From contig OZ020598.1 of the NCBI GenBank assembly GCA_963971535.1, forward strand, positions 101,851,496 through 101,915,495: a stretch of 64,000 nt of DNA, written 5' to 3'. The notes beneath the pieces were generated by a model. It worked only from the letters and a program-made list of their open reading frames with translations. It had not been told where the DNA came from and did not search any database. The DNA comes from Notolepis coatsorum. Taxonomy: Eukaryota; Chordata; Actinopteri; Aulopiformes; Paralepididae. Shown piece after piece: positions 30,190 to 62,172 of the stretch. A program made the position numbers and the translations under genes. Every line of letters starts with the position of its first letter. The first letter of the stretch is position 1.

Positions 30190-31305
30190 CGGGAGTACAG
30201 TTCCTGTCACACCAGAGGTACAGTTCCTGTCACAACAGAGGTACAGTTCCTGTCACAACAGGGGTACAGTTCCTGTCACAACAGAGGCACTGCGGTTTAG
30301 TTCCTGTCACAACAGAGGTACAGTTCCTGTCACAACAGAGCTACAGTTCCTGTCACAACAGAGGTACAGTTCCTGTCACAACAGAATTACAGTTCCTGTC
30401 AAAACAGAGGTACAGTTCCTGTCACAACATGGGTACAGTTCCTGTCACAACAGAGGTAGAGTTCCTATAACAACAGGGGTACAGTTCCTGTCACAACAGA
30501 GGGACAGTTCCTGTCACAGCAGAGGTACAGTTCCTGTCACAACAGAGGTACAGTTCCTGTAACAACAGGGGTACAGTTCCTGTCACAACAGAGGTACAGT
30601 TCCTGTCACAACAGAGGTACAGTTCCTGTCACAACAGGGGTACAGTTCCTGTCACAACAGAGGTACAGTTCCTGTCACAACAGAAGTACAGTTCCTGTCA
30701 CAACAGAGCCACAGTTCCTGTAACAGCAGAGGTACAGTTCCTGTCACAACAGAGCTACAGTTCCTGTCACAGCAGAGCTACAGTTCCTGTCACAACAGAG
30801 CTACAGTTCCTGTCACAGCAGAGCTACAGTTCCTGTCACAGCAGAGCTACAGTTCCTGTCACAGCAGAGCTACAGTACCTGTCACAGCAGAGGTACAGTT
30901 CCTGTCACAGCAGAGCTACAGTTCCTGTCACAGCAGAGGTACAGTTCCTGTCACAGCAGAGGTACAGTTCCTGTCACAGCAGAGCTACAGTTCCTGTCAC
31001 AACAGAGGTACAGTTCCTGTCACAACAGACATACAGTTCCTGTCACAACAGAGGTACAGTTCCTGTCACAACAGAGGTACAGTTCCTGTCACAACAGAGC
31101 TACAGTTCCTGTCACAGCAGAGCTACAGTTCCTGTCACAACAGAGCTACAGTTCCTGTCACAACAGAGGTACAGTTCCTGTAAACACAGAGCTACAGTTC
31201 CTGTCACAACAGAGCTACAGTTCCTGACACAGCAGAGGTACAGTTCCTGTCACAGCAGGGGTACAGTTCCTGTCACAACAGAGCTACAGTTCCTGTCACA
31301 ACAGA
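30190..31305 (+). repeat. 23-bp minisatellite, copy A, about 48 units
   Basis: Units contain ACAGTTCCTGTCACAACAGA plus GGT or GCT. Because 23 is not a multiple of three, one open frame passes through all three readings every 69 bp. The right half is enriched for CACAGCAGAGCT variants. A poly-G run precedes it (30166-30178). Confidence 0.97.
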
Positions 31306-33635: not shown

Positions 33636-33989
33636 TTTGTGGGTCTCGTGTTCTCGTGTTCTTCTTCTCTGGTTCTTCTTCTCGTGTTCTTCTTCTCGTG
33701 TTCTTCTTCTCATGTTCTTCTTCTCATGTTCCCTTTTCCTCTTGGAACAAAGTTTTCTTACTAATGTGTGGGCCGGGGCTCCACTCCACTGGTCAAATTA
33801 CTTACTCGTGAGTAGTACGTCCGTTGATAAAGAAAAGCAATGTCCACAGATGCTCCGTTTATAGTAAAGATATTCAAATGGTTTATTTGCAAAGTCTTTC
33901 TTTACAGAAGTGGTCCTAAATCTACTTTCCTAAATATTCTTGTCACTCATGCACATACTACTACAAGGTAAGAAAACTGTTTTTTCCCT

Positions 33990-34453
<464 letters not shown>

Positions 34454-34479
34454 CCAAAACACTTGTTATTTTTTTTTCA

Positions 34480-34590
34480 CCCTTGTAATAATAATAATAC
34501 TTTATTTGTATAGCACTTTTCATACAGAAGTTGCAGTTCAAAGTGCTTCACAACAGTAAAAAATATAGGCATAAGCGAGCATGAGCACGG
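34480..34590 (-). repeat. L2/SINE-type 3' end, copy A
   Basis: In reverse complement: GAAGCACTTTGAACTGCAAC then GAAAAGTGCTATACAAATAA and AGTATTATTATT, the typical L2-like terminus with an ATT tail. Confidence 0.7.
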
Positions 34591-35297: not shown

Positions 35298-37226
35298 TCA
35301 GCGCTCCAACTTGACCTTGCAGCGCAGCACCAGGTATGTGGCCAGGCGCAGCACCAGGAAGAAGATGCCGAGCGCGATGAAGTCCACGTACAGCTTGGCG
35401 TCCTCCACATCCAGCATGTGCAGCACCTCCCCCGGGTTCTGGAACTTACACGGCGGCGTGGGGCAATGCAGCTCGGTGCGGTTATCGTAGATGGACAGGA
35501 TCAGCCCCTCGAAGCCGTACCTCACGTAGGAGGTGTAGGAGCTCCACTGCAGGTATTTGGGAATGGTGTCGAAGTTGATGAAGAAGCCGGAGAACAGCAA
35601 CACTGGGATGGCCGTGATCGGACCCACGAATGTCGCCACCTCCAGCGAGGGGGACGCGGCCCCTATGAGCAGACCCAGGGACTGGGCTACCAGGGCGGTG
35701 GAAGTGCAGAGAGCCATGAAGAGCAGGAAGCGATGTGTTTCGGGAGGCTGGTCTGTCATCCAGTACACTATACTGCAGTACATGATGGGACATAAGACCT
35801 GGAATGGTATGTCGGCCATGGTCTTGGCCAGGTAGTAGGCATTCACGCTGTACCAGTAGTTCAGATGTTCCCTCAGGAACACAGACATCTCCAGCGGAAA
35901 GGTGAGGACGGTGGGCATCAGGGCGGCGAACATGAGGAACATCATTGAGAAGAAGAGGAAGCCCGTGTTGTTGAAGACCTTGCTGGCGTCGTTGCCGATG
36001 TTCAGATACAGCAAGCCAATCAGGACCCCGATGCACAGGTGGGACATCGCCCTGAAGTGAGTCAACACCATGTCCCTGCGTATAGTAATGAAGGTCCTTT
36101 TGAAGAGGATGCAGAACTGTTTGAAGGTACTCGTGGCAAAGGTGTGTGTCTCAATGGTGCCCTCAATGGTGTCGCTGTGACACTGGGAGTGACAGGAGTC
36201 GCTTTTGTCGCTGGAGTTCTTCTTGTCCCCTTCTGAGCACAGACCGCCCTGGATGGCCTTGAACAGCACCGGGTTCATGTCCCCGTACTCCCCTGACGCC
36301 ACCTCCATGATGAAGTCAGCAGGGTTGTGATAGGTGGGACAGTGAAGGCCCAGGTTCTTCAGGTAGGGTATGAGGTAAGGGACTGTACCCTTGTATATAC
36401 ACTGGCCCTGACTGAGGATGTAGAGCTTGTCAAACATCTCGAAGAGCTTGGCGCTGGGCTGGTGGATGGTGCAGATGATTGTCCTTCCTCCCAGAGCCAG
36501 AGACTTCATGAGAGACACCACCTGGAAGCAGGACGCACTGTCCAGACCACTGGTGGGCTCATCGAAGAACATGACAGGGGGGTTGTTGACCAGCTCCAGG
36601 GCGATGGCCAGTCTCTTACACTGCCCTCCTGACAGGGAGATGGTCCTGGTCTGGGCACACTCCTGAAGACCCAGAGCGATCAGGATCTCATCCACGAGTT
36701 CCATCTTCACCTTTATGCTCTCGTTTATCTTCAGATTAGCTGAGACCATCATGGCCTCCCGCGTGGTCAGGTGAGGCAGCAGCATGTCGTCCTGCATGAT
36801 GTAGCAGGACATCTTCCTGAAGTTCCTCAGGTTGCGCACCTGTCCGTTCACCAGGATCTGACCCTTCATCCCCGTCTCCCTGTATCCAGCCAGGATGTTC
36901 ATCAGGGTGGACTTCCCAGCTCCAGAGGGCCCCATGATGCCAACCAGCTCCCCGTTGTTGAATCTCCCCGAGACACACTTGAGCAGCTCTTTGTAGCCTC
37001 TTCTCCGCCAGCAGGGGCCCTGGCGGATGGTGTAGGAGAGTTCGGTGAACTCCAGGTCCACGCCGGAGCGGTGGGGCAGGTGGGAGAAGCGCTGGGCCTC
37101 CGTGATGTGGTTCTCCACCTTCTTGAGGTGTGTGAGCAGGGGCTCCTGGGTGGAGTTGGGGGTCTCTTCCATGGGGATGGTCACGGAGGCGACCGGCCCC
37201 GGCGGCTCCAGAGAACTCTCAGCCAT
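35298..37226 (-). CDS. abcg4: ABCG4-like half-transporter, single exon, copy A
   Basis: 642 codons without interruption, close to the family's usual 646. Domains: cytosolic ATP-binding half with Walker [10 protein letters not shown] (99-107), Q-loop Q145, signature LSGGQ (198-202), Walker B VMFFDE (218-223) and H-loop H255; a linker (325-365); then six predicted membrane segments (about 393-637) with [15 protein letters not shown] and the family end [11 protein letters not shown]. The N terminus ([10 protein letters not shown], then [17 protein letters not shown]) and HTFATST place it with ABCG4 rather than ABCG1. ABCG1/G4 act as dimers in sterol efflux. The ATG at 37226 has G at -3 and +4; the frame stays open 66 bp further upstream without another ATG. 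The residue after LSGGQ is Cys where Arg is usual. Vertebrate ABCG4 has many introns; none is here, so I infer a retrocopy. Confidence 0.93.
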
Positions 37227-37399
37227 GTCGGCAGATGCTTTCCACAGCAAAACGGTAGGCAAGGCACCTTGGTTGAGAAATGCAGGCTTCAATCTATGTT
37301 GTTTAGTCTATCTGTTCAGTACTGTTCAGTACTGTTTCACGATGCACAGTCCCATCCAGTCTGGTCGAAGATGCAACTGACACAGAGAGAGAATCGTGG

Positions 37400-37409
37400 C
37401 TATATATAG
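37400..37409 (-). promoter_or_regulatory. TATA box of the ABCG4-like gene, copy A
   Basis: CTATATATAG lies about 180 bp upstream of the ATG and 11 bp from the first heat-shock-type site. Transcription would start near 37375 and leave a 5' UTR of about 150 nt. Inferred from sequence only. Confidence 0.6.
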
Positions 37410-37420
37410 AGACCCAAATG

Positions 37421-37935
37421 TTCTAGAAGGTTCGGTTATGACATCATGCATACTGTAACATCACAAATGTTCTAGAATGTTCTATTATGACAGCATACTG
37501 TAACATCACAAATGTTCTAGAATGTTCTATTATGACATCATGAATGGTCTATTATGACATCATACTGTGACATCACAAATGTTCTAGAATGTTCTATTAT
37601 GACAGCATACTGTAACATCACAAATGTTCTAGAATGTTCTATTATGACATCATACTGTGACATCACAAATGTTCTAGAATGTTTGATTATGACATCATAC
37701 TGTGACATCACAAATGTTCTAGAATGTTATATTATGACATCATGAATGATCATACTGTGACATCACAAATGTTCTAGAATGTTCTATTATGACATCATAC
37801 TGTGACATCACAAATGTTCTAGAATGTTCTATAATGACATCATACTGTGACATCACAAATGTTCTAGAATGTTTGATTATGACATCATACTGTGACATCA
37901 CAAATGTTCTAGAATGTTCTATTATGACATCATAC
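37421..37935 (-). promoter_or_regulatory. 45-bp tandem array of heat-shock-element-like sites, copy A, 11 units
   Basis: Each unit carries TTCTAGAATGTTC, i.e. TTC-nn-GAA-nn-TTC, the three-pentamer consensus for heat shock factor; eight of eleven units are complete and three end TTT or TTA. Each unit also has TGACATCAT (a cAMP/ATF-type site in which the central CpG would have decayed) and often a TGTGACATCACA block. It lies directly upstream of the ABCG4-like TATA box. Confidence 0.85.
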
Positions 37936-37946
37936 TGAAACCGAAA

Positions 37947-37955
37947 TATATATAG
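37947..37955 (+). promoter_or_regulatory. Second TATA-like site, far end of the array, copy A
   Basis: TATATATAG in GAAATATATATAGCTTTGGC. It faces away from the ABCG4-like gene when read on the plus strand. The same block is at 34186-34194, 54862-54870 and 58796-58804. No plus-strand gene follows it in this copy; a LINE is inserted 12 bp later. Confidence 0.45.
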
Positions 37956-37967
37956 CTTTGGCTCTTA

Positions 37968-38951
37968 TATGCTCTGACTCGGCTGCTGCACTGATGGCTC
38001 TGAGTGCAGGTGGGTCTAAAGCTCGCCCTGATCTCATTCAGGAAATAATGTTGGTTTTATATAGGATTGCGAAGGCAGGCTGGTCAGTGGAGTTTTGTTG
38101 GGTCCCGGGACACGCTGGGATTGCGGGGAATGAGATGGCTGACTCCCTTGCCAAACAGAGCCTGGGAAGGGAGGAAGAGATAGGTATTTCAATGGGAAGA
38201 GTAGAACTCAGAGATAAGATAAAGAAAGGAGTTGAGGCTGAGTGGCAGGATGAGTGGGAAAGGGGGACCAAGGGAAGGCACTATTTCTCTCTGCAGCCTC
38301 GGGTCAAGATCAAGGTGGAGGGATATGGGTCAAGGAGTGATAGGGTGAAGATGTGTAGACTGAGGCTGGGGCACTGTGGGTTGAACAGTAGCTTGTTCAT
38401 TGTGGGCAAACATCCAGATGGGGTGTGTGAATGTGGAGAGACTGAAACTGTCGGGCATGTCTTCCTAGAATGTGAAAGGTATAGCAAAGAGAGGGAAATC
38501 TTTTATAAAAGTCTGGTAGAGCTGGGAGTATCTTCCTTCTCTCCTAAATCATTCTTTGGCATGGATAATGAGAACCACCAGTTGATCACAGAGGCAGTGC
38601 TGACATTTCTGCATGCTTCAGAGTTGTACCAGAGGATATAGCGTTAGTGTATGTATTAGTATTGGACAGGCAAGAGGAGCAGAGAAGAAGGAGAAAGTGT
38701 GAGTTGAAGAGGCCTAAAGATGGAACACCACTAGTGTAGTATAAGAAATCCCGCGGAGGGGGGCTCAGACAGGAAGTAGCAGCAGTAGCTGCACTCCAAT
38801 GGACAATGTAGGTGATGACGGGGTCCAGTAGAAGAAGAAAAAGAAGGAGAAGAAGGAGAAGAAGAAGAGCCCATAAAAAGAATTGCGGAGGGCAGTAATA
38901 CGCCTCGATGCGTCTACTCTGCCGGAAATTCAAATAAGAAGAAGAAGAAGA
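37968..38951 (+). mobile_element. Nimb/I-clade-like LINE 3' fragment with RNase H
   Basis: The frame to 38641 holds an RNase H domain (ALICSDSAAALMALSAGG, then FCWVPGHAGIAGNEMADSLA) followed by a Cys/His-type ending (CRLRLGHCGLN, CECGETETVGHVFLECERY). The 3' UTR ends GGAAATTCAAATAAGAAG with a (GAA)n tail. An RNase H after the reverse transcriptase is typical of I/Nimb LINEs. It interrupts the promoter-like module of copy A between GGCTCTTA and ATTAATCATAAC; copy B is uninterrupted at that point. Confidence 0.85.
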
Positions 38952-39211: not shown

Positions 39212-41089
39212 TGTAGGGGGCTATTGTTTCATTTTGTCACTCTGCTATGAGAAGGTCTGTCTTGCTACAGCTTTCTCTCCTCTCAAACCATTCATACTGA
39301 CGGTCAATCGGTATACTGGGGGAGTAGTGTGGGGGGGGGGCTTTGTTTACCTTTTTTGGTAAATGGGCTAAACTAGGGCTGGTGTTCTGTTGTGAATATT
39401 TTGAATGAAGACGGGTCTGGTCCGTCTCCCCTTAAAATTTGTGTGTATGGGTTTGCTCATTCTACAGTTTTTGTGGTTTAGCTCTTTTATTCATTTAACC
39501 TTTTCATGGTCCACACCACAGTGGAGGGTGCTGTTTGCAATCACCACTGGTGCTCCATGTTAACGTCAGTCCTTTGTTTTTGATATATTGAAACAATGCC
39601 CCGCCCGGCCGACACCATGGGTCGGCCTGGCGAGTGGCTGGTGGGCTGTTAAGGCTTGTACCGCCACGGTATGGAATTGGCAACGATTAGAACTGTGTTC
39701 GAATTGGTGTTTTTTCTATTACAGAAATGGTGTCTGGTGGAGGGGCCTTGAGGGCCGGCCGACGTCGACACATCGCGCACGGTGTTGGTAAACCACTCCG
39801 TCGAGGATGTTGACGTTATTAGCTTTGACCCAGCCGCAAGCTATAACCGCTCAGGGTTCCCCTCTCCGCAGGGGATTTTGGTCTTCTGCTGGAGCGCGGG
39901 CGGTATTGTCCTAGGCCCTACACCGCCTCACACCGCGCAGCCAGAAGAAGAGAGAGCACGGCCTCGTCAGCGGCGATGACGGGGCCCTCGACAGGCGGCC
40001 ATGTTTCCCCCGCCAGTGGTGCCCTGGTTGGAGAATCGACAGGGTATCGCGAGGCCGACAGTCTTGGCGGCCGAGGGATCGGCCATTTTGGGTGATTTCG
40101 GTGTTGGTAAACCACTCCGTCGTCATTTTGCCGCGAGCAGCCCGCTCCCCGTTCAATCCTCTCTCTGGTATCCCCAGAAGCGGGGCTCTGAGCGTTCTCC
40201 TTTGGCTGCGGGCCGCGAACCTTCATTGAAGCGTATGCGGCCCCATTCTTCGCTTCTCATGGAGACAGGGGCTGACACCCAGTTGATGGCTGAGCCTGGG
40301 TCTGTCCGTGAGAATGTTGTGCTGTCAAGCGGCTCCCACACCTTGAACTGTGTTGGTTGAGCCTGGTGTTACGTCTGTCAACTTAAGTGTTGTCAGCAGG
40401 GGGGCTCGAAACCTTTTGAGGCACACAGTGCGGGCTTCCCCGGCCTCGCCTTCGCCAGGCCAGGTATCATGTTGGTGCTCCCACTCCTGGAATATTGGCA
40501 AGTGGTCGCAGCTCACATGGTTTGGGGTGGTAGTGATATCACTGCAGGGCTACGGTGTGTAGGAACCCATGGGGGCCTTACACCTTGCATGTCCGGCTGC
40601 AGAACGACTCCTTCAGCATGTTCTGGAGGGGTGTTCAGTGGGGGGGCTTTTTTGATCGGAAGCCCCCCGTATCAGACAGGCCCTTTTTCTGTCGGGGTTC
40701 CCCCTTGGGTGCGATTGCCTCGTGGGTGGTGTCAGGGTCAGGTGTTCCGACACGGAACGCGCTCCTCGCACGATTCCAGGGTTGTCTTCGCACAGCGGGG
40801 GGGACCGGGCCAACTATCTACAGTTCCTGGCGGACCTGCGCCACGTGACGGCGGGTGCGTTGGGAGTGTCGTCACATATGACTACGGCAGTACCATATGT
40901 CGAGGTAGATGGAGAGAATGGTGAGGCGGGGACTTGTGTTTACACAACCCCACCCGTTTTCAGGTTTGGTACAGACCCTGTTGTCGGGGTCTTTAGCAGG
41001 GACAGCTCTGGTCGACGAGATCCAATCTCTGTGGACGAAGCAAGCCATCGTCGTGGCGTTCTCCTCCCGGTGTTCTCTGCCCGAGAAGT

Positions 41090-41420
41090 CGGGAGGGAGG
41101 GGTGTAAGACCCAGGCTGGACCTGTCCCATGGGAAGGTTCAGCATTTTTTGGATCGTCTCCTACCTGTTGAACACTGTCAGGTGGGGGTCTGGTTCTCCT
41201 CCATAGACCTGTAGGATGCGTATGCGCATCCCCGATCTTCCATCCTAGGGCTTACCTACGCTTCCTTTGCAGGGTTAGCGTATGAGTACCAGAGGCTGCC
41301 GTTCGGTTTTCTCTGGCTCCCCGCATCTTCACCAAGTGCGTGGAGGCCGCACTGGGGCCTCTGCGTCATCCGGGGTTACGGAGTGTTCTGCCCTGATGAC
41401 GTTCTGGTCCTTCGCGGTCA
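41090..41420 (+). pseudogene. DIRS reverse transcriptase relic
   Basis: Family blocks visible: VRPRLDLSHGKVQHFLDRLL, WFSSIDL followed by a TAG and DAYAH (motif A, broken by the stop at about 41212), then YEYQRLPFGF and IFTKCVEAALGPLR in other frames. The polymerase copies the element RNA in active members; this one cannot. Confidence 0.82.
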
Positions 41421-41559
41421 AGGTGGATCGTCAGGTCTCGTACCAGGCAGGTCTCTACCAGCCTGGGGTTGCTGTACACTGGATGTAGAGTATTCCTCTT
41501 CCCAGTCAACGGTTGGAGGGCTATGGGCATCCATCTCGGAGCGTGTTGTCAACACGCTC

Positions 41560-41935
41560 GGGAGGTTCCGTCCTAGGACGGTTACGGCGCTGTCTCACGT
41601 CGCGTTTTCACCGACGCCTCCCTCGCTGGTGATGCGTCGGGCCAACGCAGTAGGGGGCAGCTGGCAAACCATGCTGCCCGGTCTGCGCTACGTTCAATGT
41701 GTTGGTGTTGAAAGCGGTCCTTCTGGTCCACAAATGGTGTTGATCAGGACGGACGATACGACGTCAGTGTCGTGTATCGACAGACAGGGAGGAGTACGCT
41801 CCCCCTGTCTGCACCAGGCGGCGGGCGGCTGGCTATGGGCGTCCTCCATCTGCGCGGCCTAAGGGCTCCCCACATCCCCGGCAGGGAGAATGTGGGTGCA
41901 GGTGTACTGTCGCGGGGCGGCCCTCATCCTGACGG
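41560..41935 (+). pseudogene. DIRS RNase H relic
   Basis: VFTDASLAG (catalytic Asp block, near 41608) and IRTDDTTSVSCIDRQGGVRS (near 41750) are the DIRS RNase H motifs. A TAA stop follows near 41860 and frames shift around it. Confidence 0.75.
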
Positions 41936-42129
41936 GTGAGGATTGCGTCTGGACATGGCCAGGCAGGTCTGGGACCGATGCCGTGCCGCCAGGGATTCTT
42001 CCCCATACATCTGTTAGGTCAGTTGTTGGGACGGGTACGTTGAGGGGCGCAGGTTCTTGATCCTGATGGTGTTACCATCTGGACTGCACATGCTCCCTCC
42101 ACTGTCGCGCTTACGCGGGCAGATGACGT

Positions 42130-43090
42130 ATGTTCCAAGTGTGGTGTAAGGCAAGGGGCCTGGACTCAGTCTCCTGCCCCCTGGTTGCTGTCCTTAGTTA
42201 CCTCCAGTCTCTCCTTGATAGACTGTCGGCTTCGACGGTGAGGGTATATGCAGCAGCTATATCCTCCTATCATGAGGGGTTTGAGGGGATGTCTTGTTCA
42301 GCCACCCTCTTGTGAAGCGTTTCCTGCTTGGCGCTCGACGCGTTAAGCCGGTGCAACGCTCCTTGGCTCCGACTTGGGATCTTCAATTGGTCCTCGGTCG
42401 GTTGTCCTTGGCCCCGTTTGAGCCGCTCGAGCGGGCGCCGTTGGGACAGCTGTCCTTCAGGACCGCGTTCCTTCTGGCTGTCACTTCCGCTAAACGCGTA
42501 GGTGAGCTCTGTGCTCTCTCGGTACATCCAGTACATCCAGAGTGCCTGTCTTTTCGGACCGATTGCGGTGTCACTCTGCGACCTAATCCTGCTTTCGTGC
42601 CTGAGAATATCCGGAGTTCCTTCCGCTCCCGGGATATTGTGGTTCAGGCGTTTCGTCCTCCTCCTCACACTGGTGAGTTAGATGCGGGCCTTCACCTGTC
42701 ATGTCCAGTCCGTGCTTGGGGATTTACCTCAGCCGTACTCAGGATTTCAGGGTTACCGACCAGCTTTTTGTCTGTTACGGTGGGGCTCGTGCTGGTAAGG
42801 CACTGTCGGAGCAGCGCCTGTCCCATTGGTTGTGCGAGGGTGTTACCCTCTGCTACACGCTGGCTGGGCAGGATCCCCCTGGGGGCGTCAGGGCGCACTC
42901 CACTCGTGGGGTGGCTGCCTCTGCCGCTCTCCTGGGTGGGGCCTCGGTGGAGGCCATCTGTGCTGCAGCTTCATGGTCCTCCCCGGGCTCCTTTGTAAGG
43001 TTTTTCCTCATGGACATGACCGGGGGTTCTGTCTCCCAGGCGGTTCTGGGGTCTGTGGCCTTTCCTGCTTCCCGTCCTTTGGTCGGGTAG
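42130..43090 (+). pseudogene. DIRS tyrosine recombinase relic
   Basis: The N-terminal part has STVRVYAAAISSYHEGF. The catalytic part has FLLAVTSAKRVGELCALSV (first Arg), PLGGVRAHSTRG-like sequence (read GVRAHSTRGVAASAALLGG, His-x-x-Arg) and EAICAAASWSSPGSFVRFF. In related elements the last block usually reads RFY; here it is RFF, so the presumed nucleophile Tyr seems lost. At least one frameshift (near 42300) and one near 42735 break the frame. Confidence 0.85.
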
Positions 43091-50805: not shown

Positions 50806-51895
50806 GTACAGTTCCTGTCACACCAGAGGTACAGTTCCTGTCACAACAGAGGTACAGTTCCTGTCACAACAGGGGTACAGTTCCTGTCACAACAGAGGCA
50901 CTGCGGTTTAGTTCCTGTCACAACAGAGGTACAGTTCCTGTCACAACAGAGCTACAGTTCCTGTCACAACAGAGGTACAGTTCCTGTCACAACAGAATTA
51001 CAGTTCCTGTCAAAACAGAGGTACAGTTCCTGTCACAACATGGGTACAGTTCCTGTCACAACAGAGGTAGAGTTCCTATAACAACAGGGGTACAGTTCCT
51101 GTCACAACAGAGGGACAGTTCCTGTCACAGCAGAGGTACAGTTCCTGTCACAACAGAGGTACAGTTCCTGTAACAACAGGGGTACAGTTCCTGTCACAAC
51201 AGAGGTACAGTTCCTGTCACAACAGAGGTACAGTTCCTGTCACAACAGGGGTACAGTTCCTGTCACAACAGAGGTACAGTTCCTGTCACAACAGAAGTAC
51301 AGTTCCTGTCACAACAGAGCCACAGTTCCTGTAACAGCAGAGGTACAGTTCCTGTCACAACAGAGCTACAGTTCCTGTCACAGCAGAGGTACAGTTCCTG
51401 TCACAGCAGAGCTACAGTTCCTGTCACAGCAGAGCTACAGTTCCTGTCACAGCAAAGCTACAGTACCTGTCACAGCAGAGGTACAGTTCCTGTCACAGCA
51501 GAGCTACAGTTCCTGTCACAGCAGAGGTACAGTTCCTGTCACAGCAGAGGTACAGTTCCTGTCACAGCAGAGCTACAGTTCCTGTCACAACAGAGGTACA
51601 GTTCCTGTCACAACAGACATACAGTTCCTGTCACAACAGAGGTACAGTTCCTGTCACAACAGAGGTACAGTTCCTGTCACAACAGAGCTACAGTTCCTGT
51701 CACAGCAGAGCTACAGTTCCTGTCACAACAGAGCTACAGTTCCTGTCACAACAGAGGTACAGTTCCTGTAAACACAGAGCTACAGTTCCTGTCACAACAG
51801 AGCTACAGTTCCTGACACAGCAGAGGTACAGTTCCTGTCACAGCAGGGGTACAGTTCCTGTCACAACAGAGCTACAGTTCCTGTCACAACAGACA
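50806..51895 (+). repeat. 23-bp minisatellite, copy B, about 47 units
   Basis: Same units as 30190-31305 with one or two units fewer in the CACAGCAGAGCT-rich part near 51360-51430. Confidence 0.97.
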
Positions 51896-54311: not shown

Positions 54312-54665
54312 TTTGTGGGTCTCGTGTTCTCGTGTTCTTCTTCTCGGGTTCTTCTTCTCGTGTTCTTCTTCTCGTGTTCTTCTTCTCATGTTCTTCTTCT
54401 CATGTTCCCTTTTCCTCTTGGAACAAAGTTTTCTTACTAATGTGTGGGCCGGGGCTCCACTCCACTGGTCAAATTACTTACTCGTGAGTAGTACGTCCGT
54501 TGATAAAGAAAAGCAATGTCCACAGCCGCTCCGTTTATAGTAAAGATATTCAAATGGTTTATTTGCAAAGTCTTTCTTTACAGAAGTGGTCCTAAATCTA
54601 CTTTCCTAAATATTCTTGTCACTCATGCACATACTACTACAAGGTAAGAAAACTGTTTTTTCCCT

Positions 54666-55108
<443 letters not shown>

Positions 55109-55954: not shown

Positions 55955-57883
55955 TCAGCGCTCCAACTTGACCTTGCAGCGCAGCACCAGGTATGTGGCC
56001 AGGCGCAGCACCAGGAAGAAGATGCCGAGCGCGATGAAGTCCACGTACAGCTTGGCGTCCTCCACATCCAGCATGTGCAGCACCTCCCCCGGGTTCTGGA
56101 ACTTACACGGCGGCGTGGGGCAATGCAGCTCGGTGCGGTTATCGTAGATGGACAGGATCAGCCCCTCGAAGCCGTACCTCACGTAGGAGGTGTAGGAGCT
56201 CCACTGCAGGTATTTGGGAATGGTGTCGAAGTTGATGAAGAAGCCGGAGAACAGCAACACTGGGATGGCCGTGATCGGACCCACGAACGTCGCCACCTCC
56301 AGCGAGGGGGACGCGGCCCCTATGAGCAGACCCAGGGACTGGGCTACCAGGGCGGTGGAAGTGCAGAGAGCCATGAAGAGCAGGAAGCGATGTGTTTCGG
56401 GAGGCTGGTCTGTCATCCAGTACACTATACTGCAGTACATGATGGGACATAAGACCTGGAATGGTATGTCGGCCATGGTCTTGGCCAGGTAGTAGGCATT
56501 CACGCTGTACCAGTAGTTCAGATGTTCCCTCAGGAACACAGACATCTCCAGCGGAAAGGTGAGGACGGTGGGCATCAGGGCGGCAAACATGAGGAACATC
56601 ATTGAGAAGAAGAGGAAGCCCGTGTTGTTGAAGACCTTGCTGGCGTCGTTGCCGATGTTCAGATACAGCAAGCCAATCAGGACCCCGATGCACAGGTGGG
56701 ACATCGCCCTGAAGTGAGTCAACACCATGTCCCTGCGTATAGTAATGAAGGTCCTTTTGAAGAGGATGCAGAACTGTTTGAAGGTACTCGTGGCAAAGGT
56801 GTGTGTCTCAATGGTGCCCTCAATGGTGTCGCTGTGACACTGGGAGTGACAGGAGTCGCTTTTGTCGCTGGAGTTCTTCTTGTCCCCTTCTGAGCACAGA
56901 CCGTCCTGGATGGCCTTGAACAGCACCGGGTTCATGTCCCCGTACTCCCCTGACGCCACCTCCATGATGAAGTCAGCAGGGTTGTGATAGGTGGGACAGT
57001 GAAGGCCCAGGTTCTTCAGGTAGGGTATGAGGTAAGGGACTGTACCCTTGTATATACACTGGCCCTGACTGAGGATGTAGAGCTTGTCAAACATCTCGAA
57101 GAGCTTGGCGCTGGGCTGGTGGATGGTGCAGATGATTGTCCTTCCTCCCAGAGCCAGAGACTTCATGAGAGACACCACCTGGAAGCAGGACGCACTGTCC
57201 AGACCACTGGTGGGCTCATCGAAGAACATGACAGGGGGGTTGTTGACCAGCTCCAGGGCGATGGCCAGTCTCTTACACTGCCCTCCTGACAGGGAGATGG
57301 TCCTGGTCTGGGCACACTCCTGAAGACCCAGAGCGATCAGGATCTCATCCACGAGTTCCATCTTCACCTTTATGCTCTCGTTTATCTTCAGATTAGCTGA
57401 GACCATCATGGCCTCCCGCGTGGTCAGGTGAGGCAGCAGCATGTCGTCCTGCATGATGTAGCAGGACATCTTCCTGAAGTTCCTCAGGTTGCGCACCTGT
57501 CCGTTCACCAGGATCTGACCCTTCATCCCCGTCTCCCTGTATCCAGCCAGGATGTTCATCAGGGTGGACTTCCCAGCTCCAGAGGGCCCCATGATGCCAA
57601 CCAACTCCCCGTTGTTGAATCTCCCCGAGACACACTTGAGCAGCTCTTTGTAGCCTCTTCTCCGCCAGCAGGGGCCCTGGCGGATGGTGTAGGAGAGTTC
57701 GGTGAACTCCAGGTCCACGCCGGAGCGGTGGGGCAGGTGGGAGAAGCGCTGGGCCTCCGTGATGTGGTTCTCCACCTTCTTGAGGTGTGTGAGCAGGGGC
57801 TCCTGGGTGGAGTTGGGGGTCTCTTCCATGGGGATGGTCACGGAGGCGACCGGCCCCGGCGGCTCCAGAGAACTCTCAGCCAT
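55955..57883 (-). CDS. abcg4: ABCG4-like half-transporter, single exon, copy B
   Basis: Same 642-codon uninterrupted frame as copy A, with all ABC motifs at the same positions and the same Cys after LSGGQ. By eye I count four base differences to copy A: three silent and one that changes residue 327 from Gly to Asp (AIQDGLC), in the linker between the ATP-binding and membrane halves. The conserved frame, with change mostly at silent positions, argues that it was not a dead copy at the time of duplication, though the number is too small for a test. Start and stop are chosen as in copy A. Confidence 0.93.
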
Positions 57884-58056
57884 GTCGGCAGATGCTTTCC
57901 ACAGCAAAACGGTAGGCAAGGCACCTTGGTTGAGAAATGCAGGCTTCAATCTATGTTGTTTAGTCTATCTGTTCAGTACTGTTCAGTACTGTTTCACGAT
58001 GCACAGTCCCATCCAGTCTGGTCGAAGATGCAACTGACACAGAGAGAGAATCGTGG

Positions 58057-58066: not shown

Positions 58067-58077
58067 AGACCCAAATG

Positions 58078-58786
58078 TTCTAGAAGGTTCGGTTATGACA
58101 TCATGCATACTGTAACATCACAAATGTTCTAGAATGTTCTATTATGACAGCATACTGTAACATCACAAATGTTCTAGAATGTTCTATTATGACATCATGA
58201 ATGGTCTATTATGACATCATACTGTGACATCACAAATGTTCTAGAATGTTCTATTATGACAGCATACTGTAACATCACAAATGTTCTAGAATGTTCTATT
58301 ATGACATCATACTGTGACATCACAAATGTTCTAGAATGTTTGATTATGACATCATACTGTGACATCACAAATGTTCTAGAATGTTCTATTATGACATCAT
58401 GAATGGTCTATTATGACATCATACTGTGACATCACAAATGTTCTAGAATGTTCTATTATGACATCATACTGTGACATCACAAATGTTCTAGAATGTTCTA
58501 TTATGACAGCATACTGTAACATCACAAATGTTCTAGAATGTGCTATTATGACATCATACTGTGACATCACAAATGTTCTAGAATGTTTGATTATGACATC
58601 ATACTGTGACATCACAAATGTTCTAGAATGTTCTATTATGACATCATACTGTGACATCACAAATGTTCTAGAATGTTCTATAATGACATCATACTGTGAC
58701 ATCACAAATGTTCTAGAATGTTTGATTATGACATCATACTGTGACATCACAAATGTTCTAGAATGTTCTATTATGACATCATACTG
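58078..58786 (-). promoter_or_regulatory. 45-bp tandem array of heat-shock-element-like sites, copy B, 15 units
   Basis: Same unit as 37421-37935, with 15 TTCTAGAA cores against 11 in copy A. Complete TTCnnGAAnnTTC patterns are in most units; some end TTTG or TGCT. Two CATGAATGGTC spacers show that blocks of several units were duplicated. Confidence 0.85.
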
Positions 58787-61012: not shown

Positions 61013-62172
61013 GAGTACAGTTCCTGTCACACCAGAGGTACAGTTCCTGTCACAACAGAGGTACAGTTCCTGTCACAACAGGGGTACAGTTCCTGTCACA
61101 ACAGAGGCACTGCGGTTTAGTTCCTGTCACAACAGAGGTACAGTTCCTGTCACAACAGAGCTACAGTTCCTGTCACAACAGAGGTACAGTTCCTGTCACA
61201 ACATAATTACAGTTCCTGTCAAAACAGAGGTACAGTTCCTGTCACAACAGGGGTACAGTTCCTGTCACAACAGAGGTACAGTTCCTGTAACAACAGGGGT
61301 ACAGTTCCTGTCACAACAGAGGGACAGTTCCTGTCACAGCAGAGGTACAGTTCCTGTCACAACAGAGGTACAGTTCCTGTAACAACAGGGGTACAGTTCC
61401 TGTCACAACAGAGGTACAGTTCCTGTCACAACAGAGGTACAGTTCCTGTCACAACAGGGGTACAGTTCCTGTCACAACAGAGGTACAGTTCCTGTCACAA
61501 CAGAAGTACAGTTCCTGTCACAACAGAGCCACAGTTCCGGTAACAGCAGAGGTACAGTTCCTGTCACAACAGAGGTACAGTTCCTGTCACAACAGAGCTA
61601 CAGTTCCTGTCACAGCAGAGCTACAGTTCCTGTCACAACAGAGCTACAGTTCCTGTCACAGCAGAGCTACAGTTCCTGTCACAGCAGAGCTACAGTTCCT
61701 GTCACAGCAGAGCTACAGTACCTTTCACAGCAGAGGTACAGTTCCTGTCACAGCAGAGCTACAGTTCCTGTCACAACAGAGCTACAGTTCCTGTCACAGC
61801 AGAGGTACAGTTCCTGTCACAGCAGAGCTACAGTTCCTGTCACAGCAGAGCTACAGTTCCTGTCACAACAGAGGTACAGTTCCTGTCACAACAGACATAC
61901 AGTTCCTGTCACAACAGAGGTACAGTTCCTGTCACAACAGAGGTACAGTTCCTGTCACAACAGAGCTACAGTTCCTGTCACAGCAGAGCTACAGTTCCTG
62001 TCACAACAAAGCTACAGTTCCTGTCACAACAGAGGTACAGTTCCTGTAAACACAGAGCTACAGTTCCTGTCACAACAGAGCTACAGTTCCTGACACAGCA
62101 GAGGTACAGTTCCTGTCACAGCAGGGGTACAGTTCCTGTCACAACAGAGCTACAGTTCCTGTCACAACAGAC
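61013..62172 (+). repeat. 23-bp minisatellite, copy C, about 50 units
   Basis: Same units as in A and B, two or three more of them, with the poly-G run before it reduced to seven G. Confidence 0.97.

Follow-up and report, generated by a model that had tools for sequence, protein, structure and literature searches.

ONSEN of Arabidopsis is an LTR retroelement of the Copia type with heat-responsive elements in its LTR. In Caenorhabditis, Helitrons carry many clustered heat-shock elements (HSEs), at more than 10 per kb, and have spread near genes, and the relevant parts of that report suggest, with the HSE pattern used there, that in the genomes covered such clusters are confined to Helitrons (Garrigues et al. 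2019, PMC6927752). Human satellite III is described in passages of two further papers (PMC8535310, PMC8379338) as tandem DNA bound by heat-shock factor (HSF), and for mouse cells a section of PMC4326385 gives a 6-fold heat induction from one HSE with a TATA box and an almost 400-fold induction from five HSEs. LTR-mediated retroposition (Tan et al. 2016) has been described for zebrafish among others, according to portions of PMC5408686 and PMC8232201. Judged by titles and abstract starts, none of the papers listed for ABCG4 as an intronless gene, retrogene or teleost retrocopy, for ABCG4 together with heat shock or HSF1, or for the 13-base HSE written as letters deals with the system described here.

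The window, that is, the whole 64,000-nucleotide stretch of DNA analysed here, is repeat-rich fish DNA with one segment in tandem copies that are about 99% identical over their gene part. We observe a 45-bp tandem array at 37415-37937 (minus strand; 10.8 copies according to TRF), which splits at AAATGTTCTAGAA into 11 units of 49, 45, 67, 45, 45, 45, 55, 45, 45, 45 and 36 bp. When an HSE is defined as at least three alternating nGAAn pentamers, 8 of these 11 units hold a strict TTCnnGAAnnTTC (seven as TTCTAGAATGTTC and one as TTCTAGAAGGTTC), as do 11 of the 15 units of a second array at 58072-58786 (minus strand). An earlier note on this DNA had assigned both of its motifs to each unit, which goes slightly too far: TTCTAGAA is present in all 11 units of the first array (by construction of the split), TGACATCA in 9 and the strict HSE in 8, and the commonest unit pairs one HSE with two TGACATCA. 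The same note's description of a heat-shock-element-like tandem array with a TATA box 11 bp away is confirmed, with a palindromic CTATATATAG at 37400-37409 (minus strand), the first HSE at 37421 and the minus-strand ATG at 37226. On the gene strand the array ends in TTCTAGAACATTTGGGTCTCTATATATAGCC, where the last TTCTAGAA and TATATA are 20 nt apart from start to start; this is the closeness of HSEs to a TATA box that is looked for in a heat-inducible promoter.

The motif scan against shuffled 45-bp units that the earlier note had called for bears out the HSEs of the array, in that a strict HSE appeared in only 71 of 100,000 shuffled units and 27 of 100,000 dinucleotide shuffles; it appeared in none of nine other minisatellite units tried from the window. 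Over its full length the window contains 21 strict HSEs, compared to a mean of 0.34 and a largest value of 2 in 100 shuffles. Nineteen of the 21 lie inside the two arrays, and the only strict ones outside them, at 34026 and 54702, sit in a diverged relative of the array promoter. A 23-base piece of the unit had no matches in scans of prokaryote and viral contigs, as expected for fish DNA.

In the second copy of the segment, the array is accompanied on the minus strand by a leader exon (57895-58003), an ABCG4 retrogene (55955-57883) and a second LTR with a diverged HSE cluster (54441-54948). The two gene copies differ by 4 bases and one amino acid (G327D), a third gene copy lies just outside the window (L031, L061), and the unit number of the array varies between the tandem copies (11 versus 15). 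Directly outside the first array stands a 5'-truncated LINE-like insert with an RNase H domain (37962-38930) that is absent in the second copy. Each duplicated segment also carries a minisatellite with a 23-bp unit and over 40 copies (30195-31305, 50806-51893 and 61015-62171), and the open reading frames (ORFs) at 40361-42998 resemble what we take to be a DIRS-type element with a tyrosine recombinase.

The gene next to the first array is an intronless ORF at 35298-37226 (minus strand) for 642 amino acids with ABC_tran and ABC2_membrane domains, an ABCG4 homologue that is 81-87% identical to the 120 proteins listed. A 109-nt leader exon (37238-37346, minus strand) precedes it, and the two meet at 37237-37238 (minus strand) in the exon-exon junction GCTGTGGAAAG / CATCTGCC. 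This leader is common to five other loci (L003, L004, L007, L035 and L047). The window leader is about 93% identical to that of L035 (8 differences in 109), and those of L003, L004, L007 and L035 are 95-100% identical to L035's. In these four of the five loci GGAAAG is followed by the splice donor GTGAGT, where the window reads GGAAAG followed by CATCTGCC, and the L047 leader (83%) has no splice donor at the junction position. All four intron-bearing ABCG4 loci have an acceptor, ccccgcag followed by C[A/C]TCTGCC, directly before the junction point. Leader donor and ABCG4 acceptor thus meet exactly at the window junction, which argues that the gene was copied from spliced RNA, and an AATAAA (34501-34506, minus strand) with an A9 tail about 23 nt past it (34469-34477, minus strand) agrees with this reading at the 3' end. 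An intronless copy of a multi-exon gene, with an exact exon junction and poly(A), has the marks of a processed retrogene, and the window ABCG4 is best read as an intronless retrocopy of a chimeric spliced RNA with a leader that is found behind HSE arrays.

The pattern CATCTGCCGACATGGCTGAG, with at most 2 mismatches, has 11 matches in the genome (reversed control, 1), namely, the three tandem retrocopies, one retrocopy each on C4 and C24, the four intron-bearing ABCG4 loci and two sites without ABCG4. Among the intron-bearing loci, the ABCG4 match breaks after amino acid 82 and resumes about 1 kb further on in L056, the one of the four in which a second exon was seen, and it stops at amino acid 77 within the 1.5 kb seen in L057, L062 and L063. 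The four intron-bearing exon-2 loci lie at C21:142.1-142.5 Mb and C6:161.16 Mb, three of them within 0.4 Mb, so the source ABCG4 gene itself seems to be duplicated. An HSE array is found upstream of each of the five ABCG4 retrocopies seen. At C4 and C24 the array lies 1.1-1.5 kb upstream, with about 1 kb of other sequence between array and leader (LINE-like by eye at C4), and the leader differs from the window's, containing a TTGTTGTTTCCGGCTA that is common to leaders of klhl10-like loci. The C4 retrocopy has a 642-amino-acid frame with 19 differences from copy 1. These two retrocopies may stem from retroposition events of their own or from a 5' part that was exchanged later.

With respect to the rest of the genome, a 26-base piece of the unit has 6,034 exact matches (3,027 + 3,007) in 3.42 Gb, with none for the reversed control, and the 68 arrays seen per 100 listed 26-mer matches (x 60.34) extrapolate to about 4,100 arrays genome-wide; exact-pattern counts of this kind are lower bounds, and scoring covers the best candidates only. 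We sampled 25 array loci from the 26-mer matches listed for contig C1 within its first 32 Mb, leaving out L005, L006 and L008 as overlaps; the sample includes near copies (L003/L035 and L004/L007) as well as loci with three arrays (L040) and two arrays (L041), one each of which was examined for TATA geometry. Counted from the first base of the final TTCTAGAA, TATATA follows at 19-21 nt in 14 of the 25 loci and a TATA-like form at 15-21 nt in 19, with none in 6. Upstream, TATATA was found within 95 nt in 5 of the 25, although the downstream pattern admitted looser forms than the upstream one. Array and TATA box together are a dispersed core-promoter cassette, with HSE repeats and a TATA box about 20 nt on.

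Downstream of these 25 arrays, on the same strand, we find a klhl10-like exon 1 within 400 nt in 14 loci and at 1.6 kb in one more, an ABCG4-type leader exon in 5, and in 1 a RING gene (Pfam RING) starting MAQQGV, which we take to be finTRIM-like. In 5 of the 25 the array's strand showed no recognised gene start downstream, and in two of these 5 a klhl10-like exon lies on the opposite strand. At C1:17573625-17598109, five arrays with four 26-mer matches each follow at a spacing of about 6 kb, the first (L051) preceding the MAQQGV RING gene, which hints at a promoter common to a tandem gene family. The klhl10-like exon 1 has 1,363 exact genome-wide matches, a minimum for the copies of this exon rather than the number of functional genes. 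When the 59 exact exon-1 matches listed in C1:0-56.3 Mb are set against 100 listed 26-mer matches, 30 have a 26-mer at most 700 nt upstream in the right orientation and 29 are without an exact 26-mer upstream, with 0 of 59 in any other arrangement of exon 1 and 26-mer (random placement expects 0.03, at most 2). Exons 1 and 2 join in frame in all three loci examined, BTB, BACK and Kelch domains are found, and the joined exon 1+2 protein matches KLHL10 proteins (best, 62% identical). Judging by this placement, many genes of the very large klhl10-like (BTB-BACK-Kelch) family are predicted to have the cassette as their promoter.

HSEs are also found with LTR elements. Exact matches to a 24-base piece from the outer flank of the array number 107 in the genome, and among the 100 listed there are many same-strand pairs 1.4-12 kb apart. 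Clear paired LTRs, 95-99% identical over 368-703 bp, are present in 5 of the 14 fetched loci (L027, L025, L024, L026 and L023), and a scan of 10 ORFs found Peptidase_A17 (Pao type) in L026, L029 and L033 and DUF5641 in L029. Relatives of the flanking LTRs therefore have the paired direct LTRs and Pao-type pol domains of BEL/Pao LTR elements; the short ORFs of the window itself yielded no Pao-type pol domains. Of the 26 loci with the LTR flank, 24 contain at least one strict HSE (11 of 12 among L009-L020 and 13 of 14 among L021-L034); counted by different places this is 22 of 24, because L018 coincides with L033 and L014 with L034. The third copy of the window segment is among these loci, as L031.

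In the window, the stretch after the TATA box (37347-37399, minus strand) matches a BEL/Pao-type LTR, to about position 397 of the L027 LTR, and the U3 edge of this first LTR lies at 37926-37970 (minus strand), with a plus-strand TATA-like ATATATATAGC. The ABCG4 promoter is an LTR fragment to position ~397 in which the 45-bp array replaces the ordinary HSE cluster. A second LTR (33765-34460, minus strand) corresponds to L027 LTR positions 1-263 and 459-688 with the TATA part missing, contains a diverged HSE cluster at about 34010-34095 and a (TAA)n tract, and is followed below by sequence common to the inner parts of the element family. We reject ABCG4 as the simple cargo of an LTR pair because the first LTR is cut at ~397 and the second continues into more of the element. 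Nor is the gene flanked by two complete LTRs, as a product of LTR-mediated retroposition would be; the second LTR is without its first bases and positions 264-458. One locus, L047, combines LTR, array and leader exon, which connects the LTR and array settings; clear LTR flanks were seen at no other of the 25 array loci.

Two further observations concern these LTRs. The plus-strand TATA-like ATATATATAGC, at 34185-34195 and 37946-37956, borders both HSE modules, and a transcript begun at the copy near 34190 would cross ABCG4 in the antisense direction. Four loci with LTRs of the BEL/Pao-type family (L024, L025, L027 and L029) have an ORF with an immunoglobulin domain, presumably MCAM-like, which in L024 and L025 is fused to an MLV-type integrase C-terminal domain and is apparently a second host gene captured by BEL/Pao-type elements.

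We consider it probable that a portable heat-shock-type promoter was spliced, via its leader, to ABCG4, and that the product was then retroposed and tandemly duplicated. The array would be the enhancer part of a portable core promoter composed of HSE repeats, a TATA box about 20 nt on and a short leader; this cassette would drive many klhl10-like family members, and related HSE clusters would form the U3 of BEL/Pao-type LTRs. A transcript that presumably began at the HSE promoter would have had its leader exon spliced to ABCG4 exon 2. This chimeric RNA, spliced and polyadenylated, would then have been reverse-transcribed to end up behind an HSE-bearing LTR fragment, with reverse transcription perhaps jumping to an LTR-element template, a putative route by which U3 reached its upstream position, and the unit of promoter and intronless ABCG4 would have been tandemly duplicated afterwards. 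From the motifs we infer that HSF proteins bind the arrays, one trimer per HSE, and many trimers beside the TATA box would give strong stress-dependent initiation. The array promoter would then drive ABCG4 today, switched on, as predicted, by heat, by proteotoxic stress or by germ-line HSF; a dose effect of repeat number would be expected, and the TGACATCA motifs may add ATF/CREB-type input.

ABCG4 would thus be under stress control or under germ-line HSF control, the latter because the main client family is KLHL10-like. KLHL10, HSF2, HSF5 and CREM have testis roles, and KLHL10 works in spermatids. It is quite possible, though short of an even chance, that the cassette is a germ-line promoter and not a heat sensor, its repeats binding HSF2 or HSF5 together with CREM/ATF-type factors (at TGACATCA) in spermatids, and that ABCG4 was captured because retrocopies come from germ-line transcripts. 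Both the KLHL10-like identity of the main downstream family and the joining of an HSE with two TGACATCA in the commonest unit are in line with this reading, whereas HSEs of the TTCTAGAA type also make up a published heat reporter for HSF1, as given in a section of PMC4326385. The germ-line and heat readings are mutually compatible.

We find it conceivable, if doubtful, that LTR and array are methylated or heterochromatic and that the ABCG4 retrocopies are the unused passengers of a silent remnant. The third pentamer is among the variable columns within the arrays (columns 17-19, of six variable ones), the longest invariant run in the units is equalled in 2,214 of 20,000 random placements, which gives no signal of selection, and HSE triplets are hardly better kept than their neighbours across 31 LTR copies (0.833 versus 0.815; 26 of 169 shifts reach this value). 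This lack of better conservation at HSE positions, in units and in LTR copies, is what a silent remnant would lead us to expect, and so are the repeat-rich surroundings and the youth of the retrocopies. Exon 2 shows a dS of 0.018-0.116 to the intron-bearing loci; dN/dS among retrocopies of different loci is 0.30-0.76, on few changes, and for the window copy versus those loci it is 0.98-2.36, on 1-2 synonymous changes. By these comparisons the ABCG4 retrogene is evidently young, so the open frame alone does not show use of the predicted protein, and for the same reason we set aside evidence of constraint from a neutral-stop simulation and from invariant-column counts. A long protein branch may belong to the intron-bearing ABCG4 genes too. 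Against a silent remnant stand the HSE array upstream of all five retrocopies and the absence of stops in 501 codons of each of the five, though few would be expected at such an age.

The earlier note had proposed a minisatellite that works as a multi-site heat-shock enhancer for the transporter gene; that such a minisatellite grew up locally as the enhancer of this one gene is now very improbable: the differing unit numbers of the tandem copies (11 versus 15) would suit it, but the same unit and TATA geometry recur at many places with other genes, the leader is present at 5 of the 25 sampled loci, and the genome-wide dispersal of the 26-mer (6,034 matches) rules out a local origin. What holds of that proposal is the multi-site HSE promoter directly on the TATA box of an ABCG4-like gene; with a dispersed cassette and a retrocopied gene, the local minisatellite is refuted as origin and would survive as function. 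Although HSE arrays in mobile DNA are known from Helitrons (in the parts of PMC6927752 concerned), spread of the array within a Helitron, as in Caenorhabditis, is scarcely credible here: the relatives carry LTR pairs and Pao-type domains, and a hairpin-before-CTRR scan of three window stretches gave one loose match per gene copy, which falls within the leader exon.

Should these promoters function, HSF would control a very large set of gene copies in a vertebrate, going far beyond the chaperones, and would do so via a mobile core promoter. We suggest, tentatively and with more doubt than confidence, that this fish genome has made a heat-shock promoter portable, such that roughly four thousand arrays (extrapolated) would bring under the control of HSF a klhl10-like family in which exon 1 has well over 1,000 copies, together with RING/finTRIM-like genes, LTR elements and captured host cDNAs, that leader splicing into host genes and retroposition would manufacture stress-controlled genes, and that unit number would vary per copy. 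The scale, if true, is that of the 1,363 exact exon-1 matches, with an exact array piece upstream of about half of the sampled ones. The portable promoter joined to ABCG4 offers a testable case of retrogene promoter acquisition in which the event is still recorded at the splice junction, and dose can be tested on the natural arrays, which have 11 and 15 units and stand before nearly identical genes.

Compared to the described systems, the fish arrays are like ONSEN in having heat-responsive-type elements in an LTR and unlike it in host and element type (a fish and BEL/Pao, versus a plant and Copia). As tandem DNA they resemble human satellite III as portrayed in passages of PMC8535310 and PMC8379338, which is a pericentromeric satellite, whereas the fish arrays are a dispersed core promoter. 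With the Caenorhabditis Helitrons, as they appear in parts of PMC6927752, they share clustered HSEs in mobile DNA near genes (11 strict HSEs in the 715 bp of the second array), and such a cluster in a vertebrate, with more than 10 HSEs per kb, counters the suggestion in that text of Helitron-only clusters; they differ in their vertebrate host, in belonging to LTR and gene-family promoters with no Helitron end found, and in placing HSEs at a TATA box as a core promoter. LTR sequence beside an intronless, polyadenylated host cDNA recalls LTR-mediated retroposition as outlined in portions of PMC5408686 and PMC8232201, although here the first LTR is cut at ~397, the second leads into the element and the cDNA begins with a spliced leader. 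Finally, multimerised TTCTAGAA-type HSEs on a TATA box are the design of the artificial reporters in the relevant section of PMC4326385, from which the fish arrays differ in being natural, in having 8 + 11 strict sites in the window's two arrays and in carrying TGACATCA in between.
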